A DNA stretch of 64,000 nucleotides from Geomonas paludis (GTDB lineage: Bacteria > Desulfobacterota > Desulfuromonadia > Geobacterales > Geobacteraceae): positions 496,001-560,000 of the forward strand of contig NZ_BLXY01000002.1 of NCBI RefSeq assembly GCF_014193585.1. Direction: 5' to 3'. Position numbers and translations under genes: made by a program. Every line of letters starts with the position of its first letter. The first letter of the stretch is position 1. Below, one piece after another: positions 10,927 to 29,522 of this stretch. The notes under the pieces were generated by a model. The model was not told the origin of the DNA. It saw only the letters and a program-made list of their open reading frames with translations, and made no database searches.

Positions 10927-10977
10927 GCACCCCGAGAGCATCACTCGGTCAACCATTGACGCAGAAACGGAGGAATC

Positions 10978-11548: not shown

Positions 11549-12082
11549 ATGAGAATACCGTTTCTGATGGCGCTTCTTTTCTCTTTGTGTAGCATTCCCT
11601 CTTGGGCCAAGGAGCCGATCAGGGTTCTGGAAGGGGTGGTCTCCAAGGTAAGTGACGGGGACACGGTGCAGGTGCAGGATACCCTGGGGACCAAGGTGAA
11701 GGTGCGGCTGTACGGCATCGACGCGCCGGAGACGGAGAAGAGGAACCGGAAGACGGGGAGGGTCTCGAAGCCGGGGCAGCCATTTGGTGAGGAGGCGTTT
11801 CAGGCGCTGAAGGGGAAGATCGGCGGGCAGAGGGTGACGGTCGAGGTTCGGGACATCGACCGGTACCGGCGGGCGGTGTCGTTGGTGCGCCTTGGGAAGC
11901 GGGATATCAACCAGGAGATGGTGCGGGAGGGGTTCGCCTGGGCCTACCGGCAGTATCTGGACCGGCCGTATGCCTCCGAGTACATACAGGCGGAGGAGGA
12001 GGCAAGGCGGGAGAGGCGGGGACTGTGGCGGCTGGGGAACCCGCAGCCGCCCTGGGAGTTCAGGCGGTTGTCGAGGCGCTGA
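11549..12082 (+). CDS. Secreted thermonuclease (SNase-like)
   Basis: Protein of 177 residues with a signal peptide (MRIPFLMALLFSLCSIPSWA). The staphylococcal-nuclease OB-fold includes VSKVSDGDTVQV (Ca-binding Asp), VRLYGIDAPE (catalytic Arg and Asp), GEEAF, and DIDRYRRAV with the second Arg region. The end is AWAYRQYLDRPYASEYIQAE and GLW. It should hydrolyse DNA or RNA outside the cytoplasm. The ATG at 11549 follows CCGGAGGAC; the longer frame from 11462 would bury the signal peptide. Three decayed relatives lie at 13540, 19862 and 40021. Confidence 0.9.
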   Translation: MRIPFLMALLFSLCSIPSWAKEPIRVLEGVVSKVSDGDTVQVQDTLGTKVKVRLYGIDAPETEKRNRKTGRVSKPGQPFGEEAFQALKGKIGGQRVTVEVRDIDRYRRAVSLVRLGKRDINQEMVREGFAWAYRQYLDRPYASEYIQAEEEARRERRGLWRLGNPQPPWEFRRLSRR

Positions 12083-12161
12083 CCGAGCCGAGGCTGCATT
12101 ATCGGAGACGGGTGGCTGGTGATCTCCAAAATTTACCGGACCACACCGGCGAGAGGCAGCT

Positions 12162-13343
12162 TCATGCCTTGGGTAGCGAAAAACGGAAGGTCGCGCCAAC
12201 GTCGACCGCACCTTCAGCCCAGATCCTGCCGCCGTGCCGCTCTATTATGCGCCGCACGTTGGCAAGACCGATACCAGTCCCCTCAAACTCCTCCGCCGCG
12301 TGCAGGCGCTGAAACATGCCGAACAGCTTGTTGACGTACCTGCCGTCAAAGCCGACGCCATTATCTCTGACAAAAATGACGGTTGCTTCGCTCTCATCGA
12401 GCGCGCCGACCTCTATTTTCGCCAAAGAACGGGACTGGGTGAACTTGACGGCATTGGCAAGGAGGTTGAACATCACCAGACGCAGCATCTCGGGGTCACC
12501 CGCCACGGTCGGCAGGGGGGGCACCTGCCACTCGATGTCCCGTCCTTCGGCCTTCCTGGCCAGTTCCGTCACGATATCCCCTACCATCCTGTTTAGGTCT
12601 ATCCGGGCCTTCACCACTTCGATCCGTCGCAGTTGCGCAAAGACCAAGAGGCCGTCAACCTGATCGGCCATTTTCCGGGATGACTGCATGATGACGTCCA
12701 AGAAGTGCCGACTCTTCTCTTCCAGGACGTGGGCGGACTGCGCCATGAGCATTTCCGCGAAGCCGATGACATGGCGCAGCGGAGCACGGAGGTCATGGGA
12801 TATGGTGTAGCTGACATCAGCTAATTCTTTGTTGGCTGCGGTCAGTTGCTCGATCTGGCTCTGCAACTGGGCATTAAGGTGACGAAGGTCGGCCTCATAC
12901 CGTTTTTGCTGGGTGATGTCCCGGGCGACGGCGAGAATCCAGCGTCTTTCCCCGCACTCGATGGGAACCAACATGATGTCCAAAGGGATTTCCCATCCCT
13001 GGCTGTGCTTGCCATACAGCTCCAAGGCGCTCCCCATCTTGCGGGGCTGTGGGTCCGCCACATAGTGCCGGCGGTCCTGGCGATGCCGTGCGCGGAATCG
13101 GTCGGGGATCAGGATCTCGACATGCCGGCCGATCAGGTCCTCGCGCCGATAGCCGAAGAGAGCCTCCGTGTGCTGGTTCACCTTGACGATCACCCCCGCG
13201 CCATCCACCACCAAGACCGCATCCGGAGACTTTTCGAAGAGACGCTCAAATAAAGCGTGCTCCTCCAGTTTCTCGTTCGCCTGCTCCGGCGCAGGGTGCT
13301 CGCTTCTTGCCGCGGTTGTGTCTGTTCCTGCCTCTTTGACCAT
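12162..13343 (-). CDS. PAS-domain sensor histidine kinase
   Basis: Protein of 393 residues, cytoplasmic, without membrane segments. A PAS domain occupies about residues 32-150 (FEKSPDAVLVVDGAGVIVKVN ... AVARDITQQKR). The HisKA domain has SHDLRAPLRHVIGFAEML (His183), and the HATPase has NLLANAVKFT, VRDNGVGFD and GTGIGLANVRRII. This H-box is of the phytochrome/bacteriophytochrome-like type, different from the AHQWRQPLN kinases nearby. There is no receiver domain and no adjacent regulator on the same strand. It converges on the thermonuclease gene. Confidence 0.92.
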   Translation of the reverse strand: MVKEAGTDTTAARSEHPAPEQANEKLEEHALFERLFEKSPDAVLVVDGAGVIVKVNQHTEALFGYRREDLIGRHVEILIPDRFRARHRQDRRHYVADPQPRKMGSALELYGKHSQGWEIPLDIMLVPIECGERRWILAVARDITQQKRYEADLRHLNAQLQSQIEQLTAANKELADVSYTISHDLRAPLRHVIGFAEMLMAQSAHVLEEKSRHFLDVIMQSSRKMADQVDGLLVFAQLRRIEVVKARIDLNRMVGDIVTELARKAEGRDIEWQVPPLPTVAGDPEMLRLVMFNLLANAVKFTQSRSLAKIEVGALDESEATVIFVRDNGVGFDGRYVNKLFGMFQRLHAAEEFEGTGIGLANVRRIIERHGGRIWAEGAVDVGATFRFSLPKA

Positions 13344-13539
13344 AGCGAACCTCTATCAACGCCCCTCGACAGGCAGCGCAACCGAGACCTTTGGCGCGAT
13401 TGACCGCGATCAAGGCCGGGGCCGCTGGCAGCTCCCCGCCAGGGTTTTCATTATACGCCGATACCCACAGGGACCACTAGCAGGAACTTCAAATAGCGGC
13501 CAAAGGTGCAGATCCTGACGGTTGATGAGCCCCTTCCCC

Positions 13540-13625
13540 GGCACTGTTTGGCAAGGGAAACCATCTGGGATTTATGGGGAGGCGTTTCCGGCTGCGAAGG
13601 GGAAGATCGGCGGTAAACTCGACAG
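13540..13625 (+). pseudogene. Thermonuclease gene remnant
   Basis: A short stretch encodes GEAFPAAKGKIGGKL, matching GEEAFQALKGKIGGQRV of the intact thermonuclease (bases 11788-11838), with clear nucleotide similarity (GAGGCGTTTC, GCGAAGGGGAAGATCGGCGG). No start or flanking domain remains. Confidence 0.55.
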
Positions 13626-13692
13626 GCGGGTACTAAAGGGGGGCAGATGGGGAATCCACGCCCCTGAGGGGGCTCGCATCCTGCACCAACTT

Positions 13693-15843
13693 TTACAGAA
13701 CGTAGCTGGGGCCTTCAGTGAAATAAAAGGTAGCGCCCTGACCGACCTCAGCCACGGCCCAGACCCGGCCACCGTGCATGTCGATCACCCGCTGCACTGT
13801 CGCGAGCCCAATACCGTTCCCTTCGAACTCTCCAACCCGGTGCAGCCGCTCGAAGGGGAGGAATATTTTCTTCGCGTAGGACATGTCGAAGCCGATGCCG
13901 TTGTCGCGCACAAAGAAGATGTTCTGCTCCCCACTGCAATAGCTGCCGAATTCAATCCTGGTATCGGTCTTAGTGGCGCTGTACTTCCAGGCATTGCCAA
14001 CGAGGTTCTGCAAAGCCAGCTTGACCATGCCGGGGTCCCACAGCCCCCTAATTCCGGTGGGAATCTCCACCGAAACCTGGCGGCCCGGGGCCTGCTCCCT
14101 CAGGCTGTCGAGAATCTCCAGCGCCATGGCGCTCAGGTCCACGGTTTCACGTTGCACCTTCCTGCGGGTCACCCTCGAGAGCATCAGGAGGTCCTCGACC
14201 TGGCGCCCCATCCTGGATGCAGCAGCAGCGATCCTCCGCAGGTAGCCAATCCCCTCAGGGTCCAGCCGCTCGGCGTACTCCTCGAGCAGAATCTCGCTGA
14301 AGCAGCTCATGGTGCGCAAGGGTCCTCCCAATTCGTGCGTGACGGAGTAACAAAAGGACTCCAGTTCCTTGTTGATAGCCGTAAGTTCGACAGTCCGTTT
14401 TTGAACCCGCTGCTCCAGGTTGAGGTTCATTTCGGTCAGCGTTTGCTCCGTCTGTCTGCGCTCGATCAGGTCGGCAGCCTGGCGTGCCACGATATCGAAC
14501 AGGCTAAAGTCCCGCTCGGATAACCGGTGCGGCTGCCGCCAGTGGGTGGACAACATGCCAACCATGAACCCGGTGCGGCTCAGTAGCGGTGTGCTCTGGA
14601 CGGCGTAGATGCCGTTTCCCAGGTAAACATTAATCTCCTCTCTCATCCACTGTGCCGACTGGACATTCGATTCCATCACCCGCGTGCCTCGCTTCAGGGC
14701 CTGCCCACAGGTGGTGCCGGTGCTTGGTTGCACCCACTGCCAATGCTCGGCCGCCTGGGGGGGGAAGCCGCGATGAGCGAGGAGGTACAGCTCGCCCTCG
14801 TTGCCCCGGTCCGGATAGTACATCTGGAGACTGGCGCAATCCGAGTGCATGATGGTGGCGGCGGCGTCGACGATGCGCTGGTAGAGACCCTGAACGTCAC
14901 CCTCCTCGATCAGCGACTCGCTGATCTGCTGCAGCATCCTCAAGTCGCGCAGCTCAGCCTCCACGCTCGCTTCCCGTTGCTTGCGCTCAGTGACATCAGT
15001 GAACACAACTCCGACCACTCGGTCTTCCCGTGCCCCGACGCAAAAGGCGGAAACGTCATACCAACGGCCGAGTGCTCCGGCGAGGTTGACGCAGCGTTCC
15101 GGCGCTCCCGTCTTCACGATGCGTCCGTAAAGCTCAAACCAATGCTCGTCAAGCTGAGGCACCAGCTCCCTTATTCGACGGCCCGTCGGGTTCACAAGGC
15201 CCGACTGTCTTTCGAAGGAAGGGCTCACTTCGAGGAAACGGTAATCTATAGCCCGATCCCTGTCGTCGAAAATAACCTCGATAGTGCAGAACCCTTCGTC
15301 GAGGGACTGGAATAGAGACCGGTACCGCTCCTCTGACGCGCGCAGTGCCTCCTGGGCCAGGATCTGATCGGTGGCGTCGATGCCGATGCCGCCGAGGTAA
15401 CGGCGTCCGTGCGAGTCGGTGAAGGGGAACTTGTAGCAGAGCCAGCAATACCTGTTGCCGTCGATGTCCTTCGAATCCTCCAGGAACTGGTGCACCCGAT
15501 TCGTGGCCAGCACCGCTGCGTCATTGGCGCGGAACAGTTTCGCGCTGTCAGGATCCCAGAAATCGAAATCCGTCTTGTGCAACCAATCTCGCCCCTGAAC
15601 AAAGCGTTGCTCGTAGGTCGCGTTTAAGTAAACGTAGCGCCCCTCTTGGTCTTTGAGAAACACTAGCGAGGGCATGAAATCCAGAAGCAGCCTGAAGTGC
15701 TCCTCACCTTCAGTGACGGCCGGGTCACGGTTGCCTGAGTCCGATAGAATCGAGGCAAGCTGCACCTCGAGCAACTGTGTACGTTCACGCAGCTCCCGTA
15801 ATTCGGCGAGCAGCTCTGCTTTGGTTTGGCTGCATCTTGCCAT
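13693..15843 (-). CDS. Multi-sensor histidine kinase (PAS-PAS-GAF-HK)
   Basis: Protein of 716 residues, soluble. An N-terminal coiled coil (KAELLAELRELRERTQLLEVQL) leads to PAS 1 (about 50-165), PAS 2 (about 170-285, RYRSLFQSLDEGFCTIEVIF ... VVFTDVTERKQRE), GAF (about 300-465), HisKA with CYSVTHELGGPLRTMSC (His503) and HATPase with NLVGNAWKYS, VRDNGIGFD and GNGIGLATVQRVI. PAS 2 is the same subtype as in the kinase at 18130. There is no output domain. GGAAGGAGATTCT before the ATG supports the start. A stand-alone receiver gene lies divergently at 16062 and is a candidate partner. Confidence 0.93.
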   Translation of the reverse strand: MARCSQTKAELLAELRELRERTQLLEVQLASILSDSGNRDPAVTEGEEHFRLLLDFMPSLVFLKDQEGRYVYLNATYEQRFVQGRDWLHKTDFDFWDPDSAKLFRANDAAVLATNRVHQFLEDSKDIDGNRYCWLCYKFPFTDSHGRRYLGGIGIDATDQILAQEALRASEERYRSLFQSLDEGFCTIEVIFDDRDRAIDYRFLEVSPSFERQSGLVNPTGRRIRELVPQLDEHWFELYGRIVKTGAPERCVNLAGALGRWYDVSAFCVGAREDRVVGVVFTDVTERKQREASVEAELRDLRMLQQISESLIEEGDVQGLYQRIVDAAATIMHSDCASLQMYYPDRGNEGELYLLAHRGFPPQAAEHWQWVQPSTGTTCGQALKRGTRVMESNVQSAQWMREEINVYLGNGIYAVQSTPLLSRTGFMVGMLSTHWRQPHRLSERDFSLFDIVARQAADLIERRQTEQTLTEMNLNLEQRVQKRTVELTAINKELESFCYSVTHELGGPLRTMSCFSEILLEEYAERLDPEGIGYLRRIAAAASRMGRQVEDLLMLSRVTRRKVQRETVDLSAMALEILDSLREQAPGRQVSVEIPTGIRGLWDPGMVKLALQNLVGNAWKYSATKTDTRIEFGSYCSGEQNIFFVRDNGIGFDMSYAKKIFLPFERLHRVGEFEGNGIGLATVQRVIDMHGGRVWAVAEVGQGATFYFTEGPSYVL

Positions 15844-16061
15844 AGAATCTCCTTCCGTTTTGGACCAAGAATCTACATTTTATACAAAATAAGCCATATC
15901 TAATCAAGTTTTTCCTTTAATTGATCCGAGTGTCGATCTAGGCGGAGAAACATACGAGGAAGCGATAAGGCAGGGAGGTCAATCGTCCATAGCTTTTTGA
16001 CTGATTTACTGGTATACAGACCCAAAGGTAGTTGAGTCGTGTACTCAAAACGAGGCTTGGT

Positions 16062-16439
16062 ATGAGTGGTGCAGAAAAGACAGAAACAATTCTGGTTGCC
16101 GATGACGAACCGCAGATCAGGGAGATCGTCCATACTCTCCTTACTCGCCAGGGCTACACAGTGGTTACCGCAGCCAATGGCCAGGAGGCCCTGGAGAAGT
16201 TCATTGTAGATCCGGCTGCGTTCGACTTGTTGGTAACAGACATCGTAATGCCCGGCATGGACGGCATTTCAAGCTACAAAGAAATGACAAAGATCAACCC
16301 TGCACTCAAGGTCATTTACATGTCTGGATTCGCCGACAACCTACCACCCTATGTCCACATCATTCTTAAGCCCTTCAATCCGGTACAGTTACTCCACATG
16401 ATCAGAACCGTTTTGGACAATAAGCTTTTGGATCTATAG
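16062..16439 (+). CDS. Single-domain response regulator
   Basis: A receiver of 125 residues with D14/D15, phosphoacceptor D60 (LVTDIVMP), switch Ser (VIYMSGF) and Lys in ILKPFNP. The ATG at 16062 follows CGAGG with 6-base spacing; an upstream TTG (16032) would add ten poorly conserved residues. It lies 228 bases upstream of the KaiC-like gene and the kinase at 18130, so a phosphorelay among them is possible. It is distinct from the two duplicated receivers at 2450 and 9193. Confidence 0.9.
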   Translation: MSGAEKTETILVADDEPQIREIVHTLLTRQGYTVVTAANGQEALEKFIVDPAAFDLLVTDIVMPGMDGISSYKEMTKINPALKVIYMSGFADNLPPYVHIILKPFNPVQLLHMIRTVLDNKLLDL

Positions 16440-16667
16440 TTTCACGTCTCTCGCCCTGCCCTTTCCCAGCATTCTACAGCTCCTCCTCACAACCCGGGCA
16501 GACATCCTGGTTATCTCGTGGTGTCAGCACCTAGGGGAGTCGCCAACTATAATTAACATCTTATAATACCAACCAACTGCGGGTCTGCTTTGGACTTGCT
16601 GGCATGCCACAGTGACCTCTGGCTGTTTTACTGTTCCCTTTGTCAGATGCAGTACGAGGAGCACAGC

Positions 16668-18140
16668 ATGGGAGAAAACATTTCCTCTGAGGTAGTTTCA
16701 ACCGGTGTCCCTGGCCTCGACGATATTCTGCACGGGGGGCTAACCGCTGGCATGATGCACCTCCTTTCCGGTGGTCCCGGCACCGGGAAAACCACCTTCT
16801 CTCTCCAATTCATTGCCGAAGGTATCAGGAGGGGGGAACAGTGCCTCTATATCACGGTCGGAGGCGCCGGCGATGAGTTGGTCGCCTTGGCGAAGGCGGG
16901 GGACATCAATCTCGATCCGGCATTTTTCGCCATCTATTCTGCAAAAATCACGGAGGAAATCCTCCAGGGTCCGGAGCAGAGGATTTTCCACTCGGCCGAA
17001 ATGGAGCCGGCAGCTGTGCTGAAGGATTTGGTGGCTAAAATCCGGCGCGTGAAGCCGAAACGGCTGGTAATCGATTCACTGTCGGACCTGCGCCTTCTCA
17101 CGGAAGACTACATCATGTACCGCCGGCTGGTCCTGTCCCTGCGGCAGGAATTGGAGGGGGGTGGTTCCACCGTCCTCCTTACCTACAACATCAATGTGGA
17201 GCGGACAGACGTCGATATGCACCTGGAGACCATCTGCCACGGGGTCATCTACCTGGAACAGGTGGTGCTCGGCTTCGGCCCTACACGTCGGAGGCTTCTC
17301 GTGCTTAAGATACGGGGCAGAACCTACCGCAGCGGCTGGCACGACTTCCGGATCGTGACAGGAGGTATCCGCGTATTCCCCACCCTGATCGCCGGCGAGC
17401 ACAGAAGGCCTCCGAAAAGGGGACTCATTTCCAGCTGCAACGCGCAACTGGACCTCCTTTTCGGCGGGGGCTTGGACAAGGGGAGCGTGGTGGCCATCAT
17501 CGGGTCTTCCGGCACGGGAAAAACGACGGTGGCTAGCCAGTATGTAGTCGCCGCCGCGAAAAATGCCGAGCACGTTGCGGTGTACCTTTTCGATGAGACG
17601 GAGGAGTCGTATCGGAAGCGGGCCGAGGGAATGGGGCTTGCGGTGGAAGAAACTGTCGACAAAGGTGTCATTGCGCTCAGCCATGTCGACATTGCCGAGT
17701 TCTCCATAGGAGAGTTCTCCGCGAAACTGCGCCAGGAGGTAGAGGAGCGGGATGCCCGCCTTCTGGTGATTGACACGCTGAGCGGCTACGCCAACTCCAT
17801 GCCCGACCAGGACTACCTGGCGATCCATCTGCACGAGCTATTGACCTACCTGTCGCACATGGGAGTCACTACGCTACTGATCGTGGAACAGGAGGGTTTC
17901 TTCGGCAAGGAGCCGCTCGAGTTGAAAGGTGTCAGCTATCTAGCCGACACCATCTTGCTGCTGCGCTTCTTCGAGCACCGGGGAGAAGTCAGGCGCGCCA
18001 TCTCGGTGGTCAAAAAAAGGGGATACGACCACGAGAAAACCATACGGGAGCTCACCATCAGTGGCAAAGGGCTTTCCATTGGCGAGCCGCTGGTGGAGAT
18101 GCAGGGGGTGCTGACGGGGGTCCCCAACCTTGCCGTCTAG
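16668..18140 (+). CDS. KaiC-like double RecA-domain ATPase
   Basis: Protein of 490 residues with two KaiC/RecA domains. Domain 1 has Walker A GGPGTGKTT (residues 35-43) and Walker B LVIDSLSDL. Domain 2 has Walker A GSSGTGKTT and Walker B LLVIDTLSGY. In cyanobacterial KaiC a Glu pair near each active site supports hydrolysis. Here the domain 1 position reads TVGGAGDEL, so the pair seems lost, while domain 2 keeps FDETEES. At the KaiC phosphosites, Ser431 appears kept and Thr432 is Tyr in GVSYLADT, my alignment by eye. The ATG at 16668 follows GAGGAG. The stop overlaps the start of the kinase at 18130, so the two are translationally coupled. No kaiB is present. Confidence 0.9.
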   Translation: MGENISSEVVSTGVPGLDDILHGGLTAGMMHLLSGGPGTGKTTFSLQFIAEGIRRGEQCLYITVGGAGDELVALAKAGDINLDPAFFAIYSAKITEEILQGPEQRIFHSAEMEPAAVLKDLVAKIRRVKPKRLVIDSLSDLRLLTEDYIMYRRLVLSLRQELEGGGSTVLLTYNINVERTDVDMHLETICHGVIYLEQVVLGFGPTRRRLLVLKIRGRTYRSGWHDFRIVTGGIRVFPTLIAGEHRRPPKRGLISSCNAQLDLLFGGGLDKGSVVAIIGSSGTGKTTVASQYVVAAAKNAEHVAVYLFDETEESYRKRAEGMGLAVEETVDKGVIALSHVDIAEFSIGEFSAKLRQEVEERDARLLVIDTLSGYANSMPDQDYLAIHLHELLTYLSHMGVTTLLIVEQEGFFGKEPLELKGVSYLADTILLLRFFEHRGEVRRAISVVKKRGYDHEKTIRELTISGKGLSIGEPLVEMQGVLTGVPNLAV

Positions 18141-19782
18141 CGCGGAAGGGTCACACGGCGGCTTGGAAGAGCGGGTGCTCATGCTCCTGCCGGAGGGACG
18201 GGATGCCTGGTCGATGCCCCGGGTGCTGGAGCGGATACATGTGACCTACAAGATGTGCGCGACCCAGGCGGAGCTCTGCGCTGAAATCGGCAAGGGGGCC
18301 GGAGCACTGCTGGTCGAGGAGGAAGCCCTCTCTTCCGCCATGAAGCAGTGCCTGGTAGGCGCCCTGAGCGTGGGGGAGCCCCCCGCCTGGTCTGAATTGC
18401 CGATCATCGTGCTCTTGCGCCCAGGTCCCGAAACCCAGATGGCCCGTGACGCGCTGCTACTGCCAGGCGACGTGACCCTTGTGGAACGGCCGGTGCGGGT
18501 TAATACCCTGGTGGCCATCATCCGTTCCGCCCTGCGCAGCCGTCGGCGGCAGTACCTGGTGCGGGATCAGTTGCAGGCTCTGGAGGAAGCGAAGACACGC
18601 TACCACACGCTGTTCGTCTCCATCGACGAGGGGTTCTGCATCATTGAAATGCTCTACGATGCAACGGGCAAACCGGTCGACTACCGTTTCCTGGAAACCA
18701 GTCCTTCCTTCGAAAAGCAGACCGGGCTCAGGCATGTCGAAGGCAAAACCATCCGGGAGTTGGCGCCAGGGCAGGAAGAGTACTGGTTCGAAATATACGG
18801 ACGAATAATCGAGACCGGGGAGCCCCTGCGTTTCGAGCGACCGGCCCAACAGCAGGAGCGCTGGTTCGATGTGTACGCCTTTCGTTTCGGCCCGCCGGAA
18901 AACCGGCAGGTTGCCATCCTGTTCAACGACATAACCGATCGGAAGCGGGCCGAATCGGAACTGCGCCGGGCGAAGGACGAACTCGAGGTGCGGGTCCAGG
19001 AAAGAACGGAGGAGCTGACTCGGGCGCTGCAGAGCCTGCGCAGCGAAACCGAGGAACGCTTCCGCGCTGCTGAAGAGCTGCGCGTCAAGGAACAGCAGCT
19101 CATGCAGCAAAGCCGGATGGCGGCCATGGGCGAGATGATCGGCTACATCGCGCACCAATGGCGGCAGCCATTGAATGCGCTGGCTCTGATCGTTCAGGAA
19201 ACCTACGCGCTCTACAAAATGGGTCAGCTCCACGACGAGGCCTTCAATACCAGCACTGCGCAGGCGATGCGGGTGATCGGGCAGATGTCGCACACCATCG
19301 ACGACTTCACCAGCTTCTTCAAGCCCGACAAGCAGAAGGTCCCCTTCTCGGTACAGGACATACTCGCCAAAACCATCAGGCTTGTCGACGCGAGTTTCCG
19401 GCACGCCAATGTGGCCGTCGAGGTCATCCCGCAGGATGATACCGTTGTCGAAGGTTTCCCCAACGAGTTTTCCCAGGTGCTGCTCAACCTCCTCATGAAT
19501 GCCAAGGACGCTCTCTTGGAGCGAACAGTAAGAGAGCCGGCGATCACCATCCGCATCTTCACGGAAAACGGCAAGGCGGTGACAACCATTACCGACAATG
19601 CAGGCGGCATTCCCGAGGACGTGATAGAGAGGATCTTCGACCCGTACTTCACCACCAAGGGTCCCGACAAAGGGACGGGCATCGGGCTTTACATGGCCAA
19701 AGCGATCATCGAGAAACACATGGGCGGCCGCCTATCGGTCCGCAATGTCGAAGGCGGCGCCGAATTCAGGATCGAGGTGTGA
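18130..19782 (+). CDS. Histidine kinase with degenerate receiver and PAS domains
   Basis: Protein of about 550 residues. Residues 16-140 look like a receiver-fold domain (VLMLLPEGRD ... PIIVLLRPG ... VTLVERPVRVNTLVAIIRSAL) without a clear phosphoacceptor Asp. Then come PAS (about 155-280), a coiled coil, the H-box AHQWRQPLN (His342) and HATPase with NLLMNAKDA, DNAGGIPED, FDPYFTTKG and GTGIGLYMA. The first start is TTG at 18130, overlapping the KaiC-like stop by 11 bases; GTG at 18175 or ATG at 18181 are alternatives. Coupling with a KaiC-like ATPase suggests it reads out the state of that protein. Confidence 0.9.
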   Translation: MPSSAEGSHGGLEERVLMLLPEGRDAWSMPRVLERIHVTYKMCATQAELCAEIGKGAGALLVEEEALSSAMKQCLVGALSVGEPPAWSELPIIVLLRPGPETQMARDALLLPGDVTLVERPVRVNTLVAIIRSALRSRRRQYLVRDQLQALEEAKTRYHTLFVSIDEGFCIIEMLYDATGKPVDYRFLETSPSFEKQTGLRHVEGKTIRELAPGQEEYWFEIYGRIIETGEPLRFERPAQQQERWFDVYAFRFGPPENRQVAILFNDITDRKRAESELRRAKDELEVRVQERTEELTRALQSLRSETEERFRAAEELRVKEQQLMQQSRMAAMGEMIGYIAHQWRQPLNALALIVQETYALYKMGQLHDEAFNTSTAQAMRVIGQMSHTIDDFTSFFKPDKQKVPFSVQDILAKTIRLVDASFRHANVAVEVIPQDDTVVEGFPNEFSQVLLNLLMNAKDALLERTVREPAITIRIFTENGKAVTTITDNAGGIPEDVIERIFDPYFTTKGPDKGTGIGLYMAKAIIEKHMGGRLSVRNVEGGAEFRIEV

Positions 19783-19861
19783 CTAGGTCATCTCCCCAGC
19801 AACCTTTCTGTCATCTGCCCGGAAAAACCGACGTTTCCCCCCTGTTTGCAGAGAGCTTGTT

Positions 19862-20315
19862 TTAGCGATGTGTGCCGGCTCGGCCTGGGCCAAGGAGCCG
19901 ATGAGGGTCCTCGAGGGCGTTGTCTCCAAGGTTACAGGGACACCGTGCAGGTGCAGGATGCCCTGGGGAGCAAGGTGAAGGTGCGGCTCCATGGCATCGA
20001 CGCGCCGGAAACGGAGAAGAGGAACCGGAAGACGGGCAGGATCTCGAAGACGGGGCAAACTTTTGTGGAAAGGTGTTTCAGGCGCTTAAGGGGAAGATCG
20101 GCGGGCAGAGGGTGAGTGTTGAGGTGCGGGAAATCGACCGGTACCGGTGGACGGTGTCTGTGGTGCGGGAGGGGTTCGCTTGGGCCTACCGGCAGAACCT
20201 GGAGCGGCCGTATGCCTCTGAGTATATCCGGGCTGAGGAAGAGGCCAGGCGCGAGCGGCGGGGGCTGTGGCGGCAGGGGTCCCGCAGCCGCCTTGGGAGT
20301 TTAGGAAAGGGCTGA
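19862..20315 (+). pseudogene. Thermonuclease pseudogene, frameshifted
   Basis: The nucleotide sequence runs parallel to the intact thermonuclease at 11600-12070. In shifting frames it gives MRVLEGVVSKV, then VQVQDALGSKVKVRLHGIDA, then VQ-free RLRGRSAGRG/LKGKIGGQRVSVEV, then DRYRW and FAWAYRQNLERPYASEYI with GLW. Bases are lost near 19933 (GDGD region), near 20062 and between 20158 and 20166, where the VRLGKRDINQEM segment is deleted. The signal peptide is not readable. It is a dead copy. Confidence 0.8.
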
Positions 20316-20587
20316 GGATGCAATAGAAAGGAGGCAAAAAGCCTAACGGTCGGGCCGCCGTCCTTTAGATGCGTTTTTCCGGGTTTTGCCCTCCTCAGAG
20401 TGTCGGCAGGGCTAGCGGAGAGGTGGCACCTTCAAACGAACCGGTGCGGGAAGAACTGGCGCAGCCGGAAGCTGAGGCACAACACAGGCGGTTCGAGCGC
20501 CGGGAAAGCAGCCCGAAGGCATCCGATCTTCTGGCTTTTCCGGTCCACGGCCCGAGTTGACTCTATTGGGCGTGGATGCCACACGTC
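20316..20587. other. Intergenic stretch
   Basis: About 270 bases between the thermonuclease pseudogene and the 98-residue gene. I find no supported gene or hairpin. Base composition changes from GC-rich to clearly AT-richer toward 20600, where the island-like genes begin. Confidence 0.3.
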
Positions 20588-20884
20588 CTACGATGTAGCG
20601 GCGCCCCAGGCCCAGTCTCCACCAATAACAACAAAAATCTCAGACTTGAACTGTCGAGCAGTGAAAGCACGTTGCACCTGGCTCGTTACGTCATCCCTTA
20701 CAGATGTTGCGCTGGCACCGTTATAAGTGCCCATTGCTGCAGTGGTTGGGATCACCACATCATGGCCCTGATCGGCCTTGATAACCCTTTTCAAGCCAAT
20801 TTTTTCCAGATCAGCATACGCATTCTTGTAGTCAGCACTGGTTGCATTCTTGAGGTCAAAGGTACAAAATACCAAATAGCTCAT
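20588..20884 (-). CDS. Hypothetical protein with ferredoxin-like fold pattern
   Basis: Protein of 98 residues. The secondary-structure pattern by eye is beta-alpha-beta-beta-alpha-beta: YLVFCTFDLK, DYKNAYADLEKIGL, a strand pair DVVIPTTAAMGTYNG, the helix VRDDVTSQVQRAFTARQF, and EIFVVIGGDWAWG. This layout resembles the ferredoxin-like fold of Cas2/VapD-type small proteins, but I do not see their catalytic residues clearly, so no function is claimed. The ATG follows GGAGGAATT. It lies 47 bases downstream of the E2-like gene on the same strand and is probably co-transcribed. Confidence 0.65.
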   Translation of the reverse strand: MSYLVFCTFDLKNATSADYKNAYADLEKIGLKRVIKADQGHDVVIPTTAAMGTYNGASATSVRDDVTSQVQRAFTARQFKSEIFVVIGGDWAWGAATS

Positions 20885-20931
20885 AATTCCTCCGTAGAAT
20901 TAGAATAAGTAATTGCTGCAAAACAGAGAAT

Positions 20932-21915
20932 CTACTTAAGCTGAGACCTGCAGCCCCCTTTGCGCAAACTGTGATTCATGAATGGCAACAATATCGGAGC
21001 CGCGGAAAACCTGGGGGCCTTGAGGAACCCAAACACCGAAGGCAGCAGGTCAGCTAAAGGCGGTGGATTTGTTGGATTCTGTATAAATTCCGTCACAACT
21101 GGAGGTGGACGCCGTACCCCACCCATCTCTACATAGAAAGACACAAAAACTTCAAACGCATTCAATGTATTATCTTTGTCCCTACAGCACTCACCATAAA
21201 GCTTATCGCTGTTGTCACAACCACAGTATTCATCCCCTGATAGTTCAGTCAGCCTTTCATAAGGATGATGAGCAACCTGTCGCCCTGGCCATCTTCCAAA
21301 AACCTGCAAGTGCAGATGTCGAAACGCCCAAACAGTATAAAGGTCTAACAGATCAACGATAGGTTTGCCCAGTCGCCAGGTACCGTCACTATGATCGAAA
21401 GCACACACAGAACCGTCTGGGAAATTTGTGTGCCGAGGACCAATCCATTTAGGAGCTGTCAACGGGGGACCGACCCAGAATCCCCAACTCCGGGGAAATC
21501 GTACAGGGGAGAAGGGGATTCCGGTTAAAAAGACTACTCTTCGTGCTGGCATGGGAACCAACAAGCTTTCAGAAAGCAACCAAAGACCATCTGGTTGCAC
21601 CCATACTTTGGTGCCAGGATAGGCTTCGGTTATCTCGCCTATCTGTTCTCTGTAGAGGGCTTCACAACTTGGGCCGAAGAGCGGTGCGGTTGTACCGGCC
21701 GGCCATGCTCCGTTGGTTGTCCCTTCCCGTCCTTCGGTCCCTGTCCATGCTGCGGCTGCGGGTCTTTTCTGTTCTGATCGTCCATAACTTTGCTCCTTCG
21801 CCCCATGTTTTTTTTGGGCTTCGACATCGTGGGGCAAGACGATGCCGGAGTTAAGAACCCTTACCTCAAGATTCAGATCAAGTTGCTGCCCGACCTCACG
21901 AACTAGCTCTCTCAT
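20932..21915 (-). CDS. E2-like (UBC-fold) protein with SEC-C-like cysteine cluster
   Basis: Protein of about 327 residues. The central part reads like a prokaryotic E2 core: strands GLWLLSESLLVP and RRVVFLTGIPF, prolines in FPRSWGFWVGPP, then GPRHTNFPDGSVCAF, where the Cys would be the thioester-forming residue, and the helix DLLDLYTVWAFRHLHLQVF. About 40 residues on is CGC-X9-CC, close to the SEC-C zinc motif (CPCGSGKKYKKCC). The N-terminal 60 residues and the Pro-rich C-terminus are not recognised. The ATG at 21915 has AGGTGG upstream. No E1 or ubiquitin-like gene is adjacent. The divergent gene is a WYL regulator. I infer the E2 call from motif layout; it needs a profile search. Confidence 0.6.
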   Translation of the reverse strand: MRELVREVGQQLDLNLEVRVLNSGIVLPHDVEAQKKHGAKEQSYGRSEQKRPAAAAWTGTEGREGTTNGAWPAGTTAPLFGPSCEALYREQIGEITEAYPGTKVWVQPDGLWLLSESLLVPMPARRVVFLTGIPFSPVRFPRSWGFWVGPPLTAPKWIGPRHTNFPDGSVCAFDHSDGTWRLGKPIVDLLDLYTVWAFRHLHLQVFGRWPGRQVAHHPYERLTELSGDEYCGCDNSDKLYGECCRDKDNTLNAFEVFVSFYVEMGGVRRPPPVVTEFIQNPTNPPPLADLLPSVFGFLKAPRFSAAPILLPFMNHSLRKGGCRSQLK

Positions 21916-22085
21916 GACCACCTACCCGAATTTTGACGACACGGTATCATAATCATTTTGATCATCACAAGACTTTTTATTGATTACTACATTAAATATT
22001 TTTAGCTTTCATGGTGGGGGCTGCAGTGGTATATTCCGCCGGGGCACTTCTCACCGAAAGGCCACTTTTTATCTAGGAGAAGATA

Positions 22086-22976
22086 ATGGTGTCAGAGCAA
22101 GCCATAGAGATGGCGCGCGCACAAAAAATCCGCTTGGCGCATATTGATTTCAGGGTCAATTTTCTTGGGAGCATCGGAAGGAATGACTTGATTAGTCGTT
22201 TTGATGTCAAGGAGGCGGCAGCAACACGGGACATTGCGGAGTATAGACGCTTGGCGTGCAACAACCTTGTCTACGATGGTGCCTCAAAACGATACATACG
22301 TTCGGAGGTTTTCAGCCCACTGTTTAACTTTTCGCCAAGTCAAGTTCTAACCGCTCTGACCCAGGGCCTTGGAGATGACTTTGTAGGAATCCATAGAGCA
22401 TATATAAGCTGTGAAACGCCAGCTCACTTAAGTAAACCATCTATTCTAATACTTAGCGCTGTTTCACGTGCTATATTCCAAAAACGGGCTTTGCATATCC
22501 AATACAGGTCTCTAACAAGCGGCATCTCTTCTAGGCAAATTGTTCCTTTCGCTTTGATTGACAACGGGCTTCGCTGGCATGTGAGAGCCTTTGATCGAAA
22601 AAGAGGACTGTTCACTGATTTTGTGCTTACAAGGATGATGGAAGCATCGGTGCTTGAAGACACAATATTGGAAAATGAAACGCGCGACGCAGACATTCAA
22701 TGGAACAGGATTGTGGAATTAGAAATTGCACCACATCCTAAGGTGCAATACCCAGAGACGATTGAACTAGATTATGGCATGACTTCAGGGGTTCTGCAGG
22801 TGAATGTGCGAGCAGCAATGGCTGGATACATGTTGCGACACTGGAATGTTGATTGCTCCAAAGGGCATAAACACGATGGGAACGAAATGCAGCTATGCTT
22901 GCGCAACCCCGCCGCACTCTATGGTGTTCAAAACGCCCTAATGGCCCCTGGTTATGATGCGGAAAGCTGGAAGTAA
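22086..22976 (+). CDS. WYL-domain transcriptional regulator (BrxR/CapW-like)
   Basis: Protein of 296 residues. An N-terminal winged-helix segment (RLAHIDFRVNFLGSIGRNDLISRFDVKEAAATRDIAEYR ending LVYDGASKRYI) is followed by a WYL domain (about 130-205: ALHIQYRSLTSG ... IVPFALIDNGLRWHVRAFDRKRGLFTDFVLTRM) and a C-terminal WCX-like extension (VQLNV-type strand, MAGYMLRHWNVDC). Proteins of this layout regulate phage-defence operons such as BREX and CBASS. AGGAGA supports the ATG. It is divergent from the E2-like gene (170 bases between starts), so it may control it. Codon use is AT-richer than the flanking kinases. Confidence 0.85.
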   Translation: MVSEQAIEMARAQKIRLAHIDFRVNFLGSIGRNDLISRFDVKEAAATRDIAEYRRLACNNLVYDGASKRYIRSEVFSPLFNFSPSQVLTALTQGLGDDFVGIHRAYISCETPAHLSKPSILILSAVSRAIFQKRALHIQYRSLTSGISSRQIVPFALIDNGLRWHVRAFDRKRGLFTDFVLTRMMEASVLEDTILENETRDADIQWNRIVELEIAPHPKVQYPETIELDYGMTSGVLQVNVRAAMAGYMLRHWNVDCSKGHKHDGNEMQLCLRNPAALYGVQNALMAPGYDAESWK

Positions 22977-23135: not shown

Positions 23136-23489
23136 CTACTTCGCCTGCTTGGCGACGATCTTGTCTTTTACCTTGTCATAGGTCGCCTTCGGCAGGATCT
23201 TCTTGCTGAGAAGCTGGTCTTTCTTCGCATAGGGGCGGCCGGCGAGGATCTTTTTGGAGTAGGCGTCGCCGACACCGGGAAGGGCTTTCAGGTCGGCTTC
23301 CGAGGCGGTGTTGATGTCGACCACGGCATCCTTGGGAGCGGCTGCGGCTGCCTTCTCTGCCGGTGCGGGTTTGGCTGCTTCCGCTGCTTTTGCAGGCTTT
23401 GCGGTCGGGGCTTTGTCGGCGGCGAAGCCGGTGAGGCTGACAGAGAGAGAGATGAAAACAGCGGAAATCAGGGTGACGATTTTCTTCAT
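23136..23489 (-). CDS. Secreted helix-hairpin-helix protein (ComEA-like)
   Basis: Protein of 117 residues. A signal peptide ([24 protein letters not shown]) leads to a Lys/Ala/Pro-rich linker and a C-terminal helix-hairpin-helix domain: [26 protein letters not shown], as in ComEA and related DNA-binding periplasmic proteins. It may bind DNA in the periplasm. Only the HhH pair is present, shorter than full ComEA with its membrane anchor. The ATG at 23489 follows AGGAGG; an upstream in-frame start (23546) lacks one. It ends at the shared terminator. Confidence 0.85.
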
Positions 23490-23559
23490 GCAGAACCTCC
23501 TGTTGGAATGTGAGCTGAAATATACACAAAATGGAAATCGGCGCAAGGCATAAGAGCAT

Positions 23560-24795
23560 TCACGCGGGGGTGGGTAAAGAGAGCAACTTCTTTAACTCTG
23601 CAACTGTTAAAATTTTGTTGGGGCGCCTGTGTATCATCTTGTGGCAATTTGAGCATAGCGTAACCAGGTCCGTCTTTGGGTCAACCTGTTGCTTTCCCTT
23701 TAACGTACTAATGGGCTTAACATGATGCACCTCGACAAAGCCACTCCCGCGTTCACCGTACACCTTTTCAAAGTTGAAGCCACAAACCTTGCAAGTCAGG
23801 CCGTGGTGTTCTATGGCTCTGCGGCGATTTGGGGCGTCACGCTCGTATCTTTTGCCATAATATTGCTTTACTCCTCCTTCACCCCTTGGACCTGCATCTT
23901 CCATTATTTCGGCTTCGATGTCCTGAACAACAAGCGACTCAGGCAACTCGGCACCAAATGTTACGTCGTAGGATCTTGAATTACTACGCCGCTCCATGCA
24001 CATAACAACGCGGTGAGGAGGCAGTTGATCCTGCTGGTATTGTTTCAGATGGTTGGGGAAAGATTTGTGCAGCAGAGATACGAATGACGAGTCCCAAAAG
24101 AGCCTAGTCCGCGCTGTCTGTTGCGACTCCATTGCTATGTGGGCAGGGTATGCCTTACCATCAGCTAGGAGCATTAGGTCAACTCTGTCACCGGGCTCCA
24201 GTTCGCGATCAAGGAAGAACGATCTGACGTCCTTGGGGATACCACTGCCATGATGAAGAAACGCAGATTTGTCCAATACCTTGGAAGCCCTGCTACGCCC
24301 TTCTATTGTCCAAGAGTATGATGCAATTAGGCGATCCTCTCGCGTCAACTGGTTGTAGAGAGTGAGAAGACGGTTACCTTCCTCGTCGGAAATAAAGTAA
24401 TTGGTGTTCTGGCTGAGTCGCAAAATGCGGAGATTGCTAAGCAGTTCGTCACCACGTATATGTTCGGTAGACAGAAGCGTTCCTTTAGATATCGCACAGT
24501 GGTCAATATCAATCCAGCAACGCAATGCCACATCCTCTTCCGGCTTCGTCACCCAGTATGGCAGTGCCTCAGGGTGATCCGGCATGATGACTGGGGTGGA
24601 GGCTATATTACCTATAGCTACGATACCGTAAGGCCCCTTCTTTCCTCCCTTTGACCTCCAAAAGAAAACGCGATCCCCAACGGCGATATCGTTCTTGAAG
24701 TGTCCTTGCCGGATTGTCCAGGCAACCCGGCTAAAGGCACTAAGATAGCCGTCGATGTCAAAATCCTTCGGGTTCCCTTGGAAGATCCATGGCAT
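23560..24795 (-). CDS. EVE-HNH nuclease (modified-DNA restriction type)
   Basis: Protein of 411 residues. The N-terminal EVE-like domain ([18 protein letters not shown] ... [24 protein letters not shown], to about residue 150) is of the PUA-like fold that reads modified bases. A middle region of about 150 residues (about 170-310) has no clear match. The C-terminal HNH domain has [19 protein letters not shown], and [13 protein letters not shown], with all zinc Cys and catalytic His present. EVE-HNH proteins are known or suspected type IV restriction enzymes against phage DNA with modified cytosine. GAGGAGG lies upstream of the ATG. The gene is alone on its strand between the HhH gene and MucR. 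Confidence 0.85.
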
Positions 24796-27520: not shown

Positions 27521-27862
27521 CTATAAGAACAGCCGGTAATCGAGCTGGAGCCCCGTAGCCAGCTTCTTGGCGGTTTCCCTGCCGATCGGCCTCTTCCCCC
27601 GCTCCATTTCCGAGAGGTGGCGCTGCGGTATGCCGGAGAGTTCCGAAAGCCGGGTCTGGGTCAGCCCCGCCTTTCCTCTCGCGCCGCGAAGGATGGAGGC
27701 GGGCACGCTGCCGCGCCTTGCTGCCACCTCACGCCAAGGGACGGACTCCGCCTGCTCCAACTGCTCGGCGTACCTGGTGATGGCCGCGACATTGGCGGGA
27801 TGCACCATCAGCTGCAGCGGGACCAGCCCTTCAGTAGGGCGCTTTTTCGTGCGTGCCAACAT
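27521..27862 (-). CDS. HTH antitoxin of HigBA-like pair (copy 1)
   Basis: Protein of 113 residues. An N-terminal segment (VPLQLMVHPANVAAITRYAEQL) precedes an XRE helix-turn-helix (RGARGKAGLTQTRLSELSGIPQRHLSEMERGKRPIGRETAKKLATGL). It overlaps the 3' end of the toxin gene by 32 bases, toxin first, as in HigB-HigA pairs. The antitoxin should bind the toxin and repress the operon through the palindrome at 28125. It is nearly the same as 50722-51063. Confidence 0.88.
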   Translation of the reverse strand: MLARTKKRPTEGLVPLQLMVHPANVAAITRYAEQLEQAESVPWREVAARRGSVPASILRGARGKAGLTQTRLSELSGIPQRHLSEMERGKRPIGRETAKKLATGLQLDYRLFL

Positions 27863-28115
27863 AGGTTACCTCCAAAAGCCTTACCCGGTCATCGATCACT
27901 TCCCACACGGCGACGTAGGTCGGCTTCCCCTTCTTTATATGGCAGTGATACCGTTGGGTCGTACCTTCCAGTTTGGAGTAGTTCTTCCAGTTGTAGCGGT
28001 TGGGGCCTAGAAGCTCAAACTCCGCGGTCAGCAGGTCCAGCCGGTCCTGCACAGCCCGTGGCAGGTTGTCGTACTGCTTCGAGGCTTTCCTGCTGTAACT
28101 CACGATCCATTTCAT
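27831..28115 (-). CDS. RelE/HigB-like toxin (copy 1)
   Basis: Protein of 94 residues of the RelE/ParE superfamily: MKWIVSYSRKASKQYDNLPRAVQDRLDLLTAE at the N-terminus, then the strands RYNWKNYSKLEG, YHCHIKKGKPTYVAVWEVID and RVRLLEVTYVGTHEKAPY. Members cut ribosome-bound mRNA or act on gyrase; the family of this one cannot be fixed from sequence alone. The ATG at 28115 is preferred because it aligns exactly with the second copy at 51316. The overlap with the antitoxin indicates coupling. Confidence 0.88.
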   Translation of the reverse strand: MKWIVSYSRKASKQYDNLPRAVQDRLDLLTAEFELLGPNRYNWKNYSKLEGTTQRYHCHIKKGKPTYVAVWEVIDDRVRLLEVTYVGTHEKAPY

Positions 28116-28124
28116 CCGGCATCC

Positions 28125-28143
28125 TATACTACTTTTTAGTATA
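28125..28143. promoter_or_regulatory. Toxin-antitoxin operator palindrome (copy 1)
   Basis: TATACTA-N5-TAGTATA lies ten bases upstream of the toxin start. The second pair has the same arms at the same distance with a different 5-base centre, which marks them as the conserved binding site of the antitoxin. Confidence 0.7.
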
Positions 28144-28172
28144 ATGTCAACACGCACTCCTGCGGCGGCGCC

Positions 28173-29489
28173 CTACTCCGCAGCTCCCGCCTTGCGCCGA
28201 AGCGGTATCACGTTATCCGGCAATTCCGGCACCAACGGTCCGCCCATGATCTCGACCAGTTTGTCGCGCCAGAGGGTCAAGGCGGTCTCGATTTGGCGCA
28301 GGTAGCGGTGGTGGTCGTAGTTCTTTTTGGTCCCCTCCCTGGCGTGGTTGAGGATCGCCTCGGCGGCGCTGGCGCTGATGCCGTCGATGTCCGACATGAA
28401 GGTGCGGCAGGTGCGGCGCAGGTCATGCGGCCCCCAAGGGGGAAGCCCCAGGTAGTTGTTCACGAAGACCACGTGTCCTAAGGCATTGGTCGAGATCGGC
28501 CTCAACTCGGCCGCCCCCCCTCCCCGCTTCTTCACCCTTGATTCGAAGATGTAACCCTTCTTGTCGCCGATCAGCGCCAGCGCCTCAGGCACCAGGAAAA
28601 CTTTGTGGTCCATCCGGTTCTTGTCGTAGCGCGCCTTGGTCCTCGCCTTGGGAAGGGTCCACCAGTTGCCATCAATCTCGTCGGAGTGGAGCCCGAGCAC
28701 CTCGCCCGGTCGCTGGCCGGTGAGGAGGATGAGGCGCAATGCGTTCCGGATTTCGACGCTCCCGGTGGCCCTTGAGAGCTCCTTCCAGAAGTGCTTTATT
28801 TCGTCCTCGCTGAAGGTCCTGCTCCTGACGCCCGGCACCAACCTGACCTGCACCGGCTTGGAGAGGAAACTCTTCACGCTCCCAAGGATGAAGGGGTTGG
28901 TCGGGATCATGCCTCGCGCCAAAGCATAGGAGAACATCGGACGCGCGGTACGGATCAGGTTACGCGCTGCGGCAGCGGACCTTGCGGAGACGTCCTTTAC
29001 GAGTTTGGCGGCCTCCTCAGTGGTGATGCCGGCGACCTTCCTGGTGCGCCAGGTCTTGAAGTCGTCCAGCGTTCCGGGCTTGCCCGTGCTCAGGAGGATG
29101 CGCTTGATGCCGTACACGGAGATGTCGACCAGCTGTCCCTCGACGTTGTTGGTGATGTACTCTCTCGCCAACTCGTCAAAGGTCAGATCGTGTTTTGGGG
29201 CCTCGACTACCGGCTCGGGCACGGCCTGGGGGTTCACTCCGGCTTTCACCTTCTTACGTGCCGCTTCGAATTGATCCCGCGCCTCTTCCAGTGAAACCTG
29301 CGGGTAAGTTCCGAGACTCATCTCCCAGCGCTTGCCGTCCAGACCGTAGAGGTAAAACCACACCTTACCGCCTGAAGGAAGAACCCTAATGGTGAAGCCG
29401 TTTCCCTCGGAGCGGGTGTACTTTGCTGCTTCGGGTTTCAGCTTCCGGATCATGGTGTCGGTAAACATCGTGCTCTTGGAGCGTGCCAT
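28173..29489 (-). CDS. int: Tyrosine-type site-specific integrase
   Basis: Protein of 438 residues. An N-terminal DUF4102-like arm-binding domain (FTDTMIRKLKPEAAKYTRSEGNGFTIRVLPSGGK) is followed by a SAM-like core-binding domain and a catalytic domain with LILLTGQRPGEVLGL (Arg I), HDLRRTCRTFMS (His-X2-Arg) and the C-terminal Tyr in KKNYDHHRYL. This is the P4-like class that integrates into tRNA genes. The ATG at 29489 follows GAGGGG; the 12 residues of the longer frame lie over a palindrome. It is placed 190 bases from a tRNA-Cys 3' half, its likely attachment site. Confidence 0.93.
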   Translation of the reverse strand: MARSKSTMFTDTMIRKLKPEAAKYTRSEGNGFTIRVLPSGGKVWFYLYGLDGKRWEMSLGTYPQVSLEEARDQFEAARKKVKAGVNPQAVPEPVVEAPKHDLTFDELAREYITNNVEGQLVDISVYGIKRILLSTGKPGTLDDFKTWRTRKVAGITTEEAAKLVKDVSARSAAAARNLIRTARPMFSYALARGMIPTNPFILGSVKSFLSKPVQVRLVPGVRSRTFSEDEIKHFWKELSRATGSVEIRNALRLILLTGQRPGEVLGLHSDEIDGNWWTLPKARTKARYDKNRMDHKVFLVPEALALIGDKKGYIFESRVKKRGGGAAELRPISTNALGHVVFVNNYLGLPPWGPHDLRRTCRTFMSDIDGISASAAEAILNHAREGTKKNYDHHRYLRQIETALTLWRDKLVEIMGGPLVPELPDNVIPLRRKAGAAE

Positions 29490-29504
29490 TTGCCCCTCGT
29501 TTTT

Positions 29505-29522
29505 TTGCAGCGATCGCTGCAA
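29505..29522. promoter_or_regulatory. 18-bp palindrome upstream of the integrase
   Basis: TTGCAGCGATCGCTGCAA is a perfect palindrome 16 bases upstream of the integrase start, followed by another half-site (ATCGCTGCAA, 29524-29533). It may be an operator for integrase expression or an arm-type binding site. Confidence 0.5.

Follow-up and report, generated by a model that had tools for sequence, protein, structure and literature searches.

Introduction

Bacterial ubiquitin-like defences are recognised through the gene of an activating enzyme (E1) beside that of a conjugating enzyme (E2). In the type II cyclic-oligonucleotide-based anti-phage signalling system (CBASS) both parts are joined in Cap2, an E1-E2 fusion with a Prok-E2_B domain, and Bub operons likewise encode an E2-like enzyme. 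Type II CBASS, Bil and Bub have in common an E1 in the operon, together with a CD-NTase or a ubiquitin-like protein (Ubl). Here we analyse a locus that differs from all three in this respect. It is situated in a 64,000-nucleotide stretch of the genome of Geomonas paludis (contig NZ_BLXY01000002.1, positions 496,001 to 560,000), called the window in the following. The locus carries a gene for an E2-like protein with a C-terminal SEC-C element and, facing it across a shared promoter region, a divergent gene for a WYL regulator. We find that the conserved unit consists of these two genes, the E2-like gene and a divergent regulator.

Regulators of this sort have been described for several immune operons. 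In the accessible part of one source, CapW/BrxR as well as the pair CapH+CapP are reported to govern BREX, Pycsar, CBASS and DISARM operons, and CapW or CapH+CapP is counted in 219 of 544 Bub operons (PMC13373217). CapW is described as a repressor that forms dimers and, from its promoter, can act in either direction (PMC9122588). According to the published accounts, as far as accessible, repression by CapW/BrxR ends when single-stranded DNA (ssDNA) is bound, while in the other pair the ssDNA-activated CapP cuts the repressor CapH.

Results

A conserved pair of an E2-like gene and a divergent regulator

The features of the locus are listed below. The three open reading frames (ORFs) are found where an earlier sequence-only reading had placed them, except that the E2-like gene may start at the GTG at 21921 (the earlier 20932-21915 corresponds to the ATG start).

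20932..21921, minus strand: E2 (ubiquitin-conjugating, UBC)-like/SEC-C protein, 329 aa from the GTG, 327 aa from the ATG at 21915 (ORF list)
21238..21672, minus strand: predicted UBC-like core, residues 84-228, codons of the segment that was folded separately (AlphaFold, Foldseek)
21403..21432, minus strand: H-T-N-x-x-D-G-S-V-C motif, residues 164-173, with Cys 173 as candidate nucleophile (alignment)
21184..21225, minus strand: SEC-C-like CxC-x9-CC cluster, residues 233-246 (alignment, Pfam)
21922..22085, no strand: shared divergent promoter region between the E2-like and WYL genes, 164 bp, GC 0.40
22086..22976, plus strand: WYL transcriptional regulator, by similarity of the BrxR/CapW family, divergent, 296 aa (Pfam, PADLOC, PDB profile match)
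20588..20884, minus strand: 98-aa accessory ORF in the direction of the E2-like gene, gap 47 bp (ORF list)

The WYL domain is the sole part of the three-ORF stretch that carries a library name (Pfam E 3e-11; PADLOC WYL E 7e-20). The 329-aa E2-like protein and the 98-aa protein had no noteworthy family match in Pfam, NCBIfam or PADLOC, and the E2-like protein with its C-terminal SEC-C element is a family outside these libraries. We call this protein undescribed solely because a literature search, with most subscription papers outside reach, gave no description of an E2-SEC-C protein.

Three relatives were found in plasmids by tblastn (35-37% identity), independent of any motif pattern, and one in a genome of the same family (46% identity). 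A profile scan of the genome_contigs collection provided 66 loci, all of which were required to match WIGPRHTN or [FC][PT]DGS[VI]CA[FY]. One of these, L010, is the locus of the same-family genome, of which one copy was kept. Scanning the same collection with the window protein as single sequence gave no relatives. Altogether the family comprises 70 loci including the window (69 relatives), of which 61 (60 relatives) are distinct and intact. This set leaves out six duplicate cores (L030, L032, L058, L059, L062, L064) and three loci with broken E2 frames (L067, L068, L070). In the latter the E2-like gene is split across frames, either by natural decay or by sequencing error, and was left unmended.

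When genes up to 6 kb from the E2-like gene were clustered over the 70 loci, XRE/M78 neighbours appeared in 54 loci and WYL neighbours in 10, with no other cluster in more than 8. Apart from the E2-like gene and the regulator, conserved clusters were lineage-specific. By reading of frames, motif and clustering a divergent regulator was labelled in 58 of the 61 distinct loci: 25 carry a fused XRE-M78 protein with an EExxH motif, 22 an XRE and an M78 part with HExxH, nine a WYL protein and two a two-component system. In the HExxH group XRE and M78 are separate genes, apart from L027 where they are fused; in L033 a small XRE ORF is the candidate. Pfam was run on the regulators of ten loci (window, L004, L010, L013, L022, L025, L031, L034, L037, L053), and the labels of the other loci rest on clustering and motif. 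The three unlabelled loci are L008, where 229 bp of sequence ahead of the gene are available, L024, in which no regulator was recognised, and L071, with an XRE gene about 3 kb off. The idea of the sequence-only reading that its genes form one system is supported for the recurring pair and fails for the 98-aa gene and the EVE-HNH gene (see below). A regulator of the WYL kind, which had been taken as characteristic, occurs in nine of the 61 loci, the usual one being XRE + M78.

A quick maximum-likelihood tree built from the 61 E2-like proteins implies at least 14 changes of regulator kind. As the minimum possible number is 3 and the mean after shuffling 25.9, the regulator kind clusters by ancestry yet was repeatedly replaced. 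Close E2-like proteins with unlike regulators are found in L035 (fused) and L023 (split) at 93% identity, in L044 (WYL) and L037 (XRE/M78) at 84%, and in L031 (WYL) and L039 (XRE/M78) at 80%. For an immune role, this exchange around a lone E2-like gene, which parallels that in the published immune operons, argues most strongly. The exchange also counts against a toxin-antitoxin pair, in which the E2-like protein would be the toxin and the divergent XRE or WYL protein an autoregulating antitoxin. The two-gene layout, the patchy and partly plasmid-borne occurrence and further toxin-antitoxin genes near some loci (e.g. BrnA beside L019) would suit such a pair. However, four regulator kinds alternate beside E2-like proteins of 80-93% identity (three pairs), their unrelated folds are hard to see as specific protein antitoxins of one toxin, and the genes are divergent rather than in one operon. 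We consider this explanation quite unlikely.

The regulators resemble those of immune operons

Residues 8-291 of the 296 residues of the window WYL protein match residues 9-293 of BrxR 7qfz with an E-value of 2.9e-96; the matches to CapW (9c5g, 7tb6, 7tb5; E 6e-29 to 1.5e-27) and to BrxR 7t8k (E 3e-19) are weaker. By this nearly full-length sequence similarity, which extends over the wHTH, WYL and dimerisation parts, the protein is a member of the BrxR/CapW family, in line with the layout noticed earlier, and its gene is placed divergently next to the promoter of a putative defence gene. It differs from the described members in facing a lone E2-like gene. The window (22086-22976), L007 and L019 provide regulators of BrxR type or WYL kind from delta-proteobacterial genomes; in this group Picton et al. 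2022 reported no BrxR homologue (PMC9122601).

The 22 distinct relatives with XRE + M78 and HExxH share the CapH+CapP architecture, and the L025 peptidase matches CapP 7t5t (E 6.7e-11). In contrast to CapH+CapP, the L010 peptidase, an M78 protein by Pfam, has no PDB match and 25 relatives possess the fused form. In all 25 distinct fused proteins (e.g. L003, L004, L005, L014 and 21 more) EExxH replaces HExxH; possibly this regulator still senses but has lost, or altered, its cleavage. The rarest kind is a replacement by a two-component system, a response regulator and a histidine kinase upstream of the E2-like gene in L053 and L061 (Pfam, L053). A nucleotidyltransferase-domain protein of L034 (4168-4887; PF01909 E 4e-7), with equivalents in L031, L044 and L062, is encoded in overlap with the last part of the WYL gene and might belong to the sensor.

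Conserved residues and predicted fold of the E2-like protein

The GPRHTNFPDGSVCAF motif with its candidate Cys and the SEC-C-like CGC-X9-CC cluster, which the sequence-only reading had pointed out, are present in the window protein and kept across the family. In the numbering of the 329-aa form, a small N-terminal element (1-40) and a mostly low-confidence segment (about 42-84) are followed by the UBC-like core (about 86-226), the SEC-C element (231-250) and helices up to about residue 300. Fifteen residues are invariant in all 61 sequences: W146, W159, R163, H164, T165, N166, G170, S171, C173, W182, W211, C233, C235, C245 and D250. C246 of the SEC-C element is Cys in all but one sequence (His once), such that the CxC and C[CH] residues of the zinc motif are found in 61 of 61 members. 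Ten of the 61 members, but not the window protein, match the Pfam model PF02810 (SEC-C) at E <= 1, with 2.8e-4 as the best E-value.

The AlphaFold model of the whole protein, based on a 58-sequence alignment, had a pLDDT of 81 and a pTM of 0.76, and that of the core alone a pLDDT of 86 and a pTM of 0.84. The predicted order of the core, a helix, four strands, a long loop with H-T-N and the Cys, and a long helix, is that of UBC domains. H164, N166 and C173, each invariant, are predicted to sit in the loop between the strand 144-150 and the helix 188-208. In canonical E2s the motifs follow each other in the order H-x-N, G-S-x-C and W. In a Foldseek search of the core against the PDB the first match was 3fn1, an E2 of the NEDD8 cascade, and the best E-value was 0.35. 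Among the best 50 of 117 matches six reached a TM-score of at least 0.35, and all six are E2s, including that of a bacterial E1-E2-Ubl complex (3fn1_B 0.42; 7un6_A 0.36; 8tz0_C 0.41; 8x7k_K 0.46; 8tyz_C 0.38; 5tte_E 0.44). A UBC fold is therefore well suggested by the model; comparison with UBC structures, as proposed in the sequence-only reading, found the similarity with E2s as the best-superposing structures, none of them significant by E-value.

That neither structural nor profile comparison linked the protein to E2s at significance, and that the flanks carry no linked E1 in 81 of 82 loci, would also suit a different type of cysteine enzyme. Its scaffold might be UBC-like or just resemble that fold, and its Cys-His-Asn centre could be that of, for example, a peptidase or another acyltransferase. 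Against this, E2s superpose best on the core (among the best 50 of 117 matches) and the motif order is that of E2s. We regard such an enzyme as unlikely.

No dedicated E1 in the conserved unit

The window contains no ThiF/E1-family protein, and no small Ubl gene was seen next to the E2-like gene when the window ORF list was inspected by eye. The earlier statement that neither gene is adjacent is thus extended to the whole window for E1, while for Ubl genes it stands at the level of this inspection. The genome itself encodes four ThiF-family proteins, all outside the window. One of them is next to what we take to be ThiS-like and JAB-like ORFs and one next to a presumably MoaD-like ORF; of the other two, one resembles the latter and one is presumably TcdA-like.

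The ORFs of 82 loci (70 distinct), with flanks of up to 8 kb, were searched with a profile of six ThiF-family proteins. The single ThiF-family ORF obtained, L005:11922-13610 (Pfam ThiF E 8e-24), apparently E1-E2-like, adjoins a SAVED protein (E 1e-19) and belongs to a separate operon on the strand opposite to the E2-like gene. Same-strand ORFs nearby are, as we assume, JAB-like and nucleotidyltransferase-like. The region L005:10074-14668, on a Sinorhizobium sojae plasmid, is an apparent type II CBASS operon at 1-6 kb from the E2-like gene, and is both the exception to the absence of a nearby E1 and a defence neighbour. Searching six host genomes for Prok-E2_B gave no match, with the controls giving none either.

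Compared to type II CBASS, the unit shares a predicted E2 fold, the catalytic-type Cys and regulators of the CapW or CapH+CapP types, which also control CBASS, but has no CD-NTase or E1 domain. With Bub it shares an E2-like enzyme and the same regulators; unlike Bub it lacks an E1 or peptidase gene, has a SEC-C tail and matches no E2 family catalogued in Pfam, NCBIfam or PADLOC.

Distribution and mobility

The scanned loci come mainly from Proteobacteria, with some delta-proteobacterial bins and one Flavobacteriales bin. In 277 genomes of the class, ten passed an E-value of 0.001 with profile A1; six of these match the SEC-C region and the downstream part only, which leaves four true carriers, the own genome counted. 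Within the genus the gene is found in the window's own genome and in none of 18 others. A search of 395 genomes of the phylum with the core profile added one strong match (G528) and one marginal match (G617, E 0.0023). G528 is no independent test, because its contig and neighbours are those of L019. No E2-like relative was found in 50,697 phage records or among 13 pattern-matching stretches of viral_contigs, and the idea of a phage-borne effector was rejected on these grounds.

Mobility is indicated by the three plasmid copies, by the occurrence in one of 19 same-genus genomes and by a junction to the right of the unit. In two genomes of the genus without the E2-like gene, G002 (89%) and G017 (83%), the matching DNA begins at 23099. 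At this position (compared to G002:C32 and G017:C1) a sharp junction separates a shared side with ComEA and EVE-HNH genes from variable cargo. Beyond it G002 and G017 carry other ORFs, in G002 one that we take to be helicase-like. On the left, a gene that is presumably thermonuclease-like matches in these genomes, and fits window positions 11540-12064 better than 19852-20317; another left-flank piece of G002 is near a contig end.

The stretch 20588-22976 is, as noticed earlier, AT-richer than its surroundings: its GC content is 0.480, whereas the adjoining 10 kb have 0.585 on the left and 0.531 on the right, and an equally low value was found in just three of 617 same-size stretches of the window.

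Neighbouring genes

The EVE-HNH gene (23560-24795; EVE E 1e-9, HNH E 6e-9 by Pfam) lies 583 bp beyond the WYL gene, at about the distance that the sequence-only reading had given. As a component of the system it was rejected: it belongs to the flank, since it and its neighbours are shared with G002, which has no E2-like gene. The ORF in between (23136-23546) is presumably ComEA-like. Farther right in the window are what we take to be a HigAB/RelE-like pair (27521-28157) and a P4-type tyrosine recombinase (28173-29522); their position a few kb from the unit fits a mobile region. Positions 1-20000 hold, by our assignment, several PAS/histidine-kinase genes and thermonuclease-like copies at 11462-12082 and 19846-20315.

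The 98-aa gene was found in the same place beside the E2-like gene in L007 (79% identity) and, by tblastn over the other family loci, beside no further one. It is absent from 275 of the 277 class genomes. For its product the sequence-only reading had suggested a Cas2/VapD-like order of elements; library scans of the protein were unremarkable (best Pfam E 0.11, best NCBIfam E 0.085, no PADLOC match of note). Relatives occur in two viral contigs (L113:4001-4300, L114:4001-4096), the match in L114 covering just the first 32 residues at the end of the available sequence. In both contigs the gene follows what we take to be a large-terminase-like ORF, and in L113 it also precedes a presumably portal-like ORF. 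A position after large-terminase-like ORFs of phage contigs is a typical cargo slot. We consider the 98-aa gene accessory because it stands beside two E2-like loci only and occurs in two viral contigs; it behaves like a mobile accessory gene. A three-gene system in which this putatively ferredoxin-like protein is essential could draw on its shared place in the window and L007, but most E2-like loci and nearly all class genomes lack the gene, and the viral collection that contains it gave no E2-like relative. Such a system is highly improbable, and a three-gene core was rejected: the survey of homologues found a two-gene unit instead of the three-gene neighbourhood that the earlier reading had expected.

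Homologues do adjoin WYL or defence genes, as had been anticipated: besides the WYL loci and the CBASS-like operon near L005, a TIR gene starts 17-18 nt past the E2-like stop in L034, L037, L044 and L062, which form one cluster (TIR_2 E 7e-16, measured for L034). The TIR proteins of these sphingomonad-type loci (L034:6953-7672, L037:3272-3991, L044:6954-7673, L062:6953-7672) have an N-terminal Cys-containing segment. A PIN gene follows at 41 nt in L022 and DruA at 201 nt in L050. In Rhodobacterales (L004:8819-9103 and equivalents) an ORF of 94 aa with two copies of a SYRSAxSGxxVTxxxGKxxPxTT-type repeat, overlaps the 3' end of the E2-like gene. Strong defence matches in the flanks are GajA beside L035 (E 1e-239) and a type I restriction enzyme in L016 (E 0).

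The downstream TIR and PIN genes and the missing E1 would be in agreement with the E2-like protein being a non-catalytic UEV/RWD-like adaptor for sensing or scaffolding, with TIR or PIN proteins as the true effectors. Yet Cys, His, Asn and Trp are invariant in 61 of 61 sequences, unlike in inactive RWD-type domains, which the accessible part of one source describes as lacking the Cys (PMC1779556). Many loci, moreover, show no convincing downstream partner (Pfam check on some loci). An adaptor role therefore appears improbable to us.

Discussion

The pair of E2-like protein and regulator very probably belongs to the stress or immune biology of bacteria. Our preferred reading, which we hold at about even chances, is a repressor-controlled, probably damage-inducible mobile two-gene defence module with an E2-like effector that has no dedicated E1. 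The gene pairing, the swapping of regulators, their families, the conserved catalytic-type residues and the predicted fold form its basis. The core of the sequence-only reading, a conflict system of an E2-like and a WYL protein, gains strength from these results, whereas the 98-aa protein as a third part and the view of a WYL system do not.

Several points weigh against the preferred reading. The search patterns partly select for conservation of the letters in WIGPRHTN and [FC][PT]DGS[VI]CA[FY], with W146, W182 and the SEC-C cysteines lying outside both. Foldseek reached E <= 0.001 neither for the full model (PDB, BFVD) nor for the core (PDB), hmmsearch of the PDB with the family profile returned no E2, hhalign against the E2 regions of CBASS-type E2s (three template sequences) gave no similarity, and Pfam E2 families match none of the 61 members. 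There is no E1 in the unit, and a ThiF-family ORF in only one of 82 loci. The border of the unit is clear on the right side only, the left being blurred by the thermonuclease-like copies. A PADLOC scan of the flanks covered 154 proteins (200-1500 aa, up to three per locus), with 80 proteins as control, taken at 20 arbitrary positions (at most four each) of nine complete genomes of relatives; the family counts refer to the commonest 25 of 114, 199 (flanks) and 101 (control) families. Since control proteins also matched several defence families, including restriction and Cas, we do not claim an enrichment in defence islands. Finally, the promoter region 21922..22085 has no significant palindrome and no sigma-70-type site. 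The palindromic operator expected for a BrxR/CapW protein was not found, the best imperfect palindrome being matched in 78 of 300 shuffles; among BrxR homologues repeats were found for 193 of 347 in the accessible data, so that it is partly lacking there too (PMC9122601).

According to the preferred reading, a stress-sensing regulator on the shared divergent promoter would keep the E2-like/SEC-C gene off. Here this would be the BrxR/CapW-type WYL protein, while most relatives would use an XRE repressor together with a peptidase of the M78/IrrE-like type. ssDNA from infection or DNA damage would relieve the repression; for repression, damage induction and a defence role we argue by analogy, damage induction being published for CapW and CapH/CapP. 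The E2-like protein would then act via a nucleophilic Cys in its UBC-like fold. The likeliest chemistry may be an E2-type acyl transfer to a target picked with the help of the SEC-C zinc element, a likely docking part, and the C-terminal helices. As the unit encodes no E1, we place the activation of the modifier outside of it, where a host E1-like (ThiF/MoeB) protein or another cellular Ubl system might provide it. Both the transfer and the source of the modifier are speculative. The outcome could be abortive infection or a disabled phage protein, in some loci jointly with a TIR or PIN protein. A more specific version is a free-standing E2-type immune effector without dedicated E1 or Ubl, which borrows ThiS/MoaD activation or transfers an acyl group without E1 under the ssDNA/DNA-damage switch of the host; we put this forward tentatively and with low expectation.

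If a defence-regulated E2-like family without E1 exists, part of such machinery would be invisible to current surveys; the window protein is matched by none of the Pfam E2 models and by no model of NCBIfam or PADLOC. Such a family would pose the question what a lone E2 conjugates and which enzyme charges it, with an E1 being either borrowed or unneeded. Four regulator kinds swapped on one enzyme would also provide a natural test of CapW and CapH/CapP as plug-in controllers.

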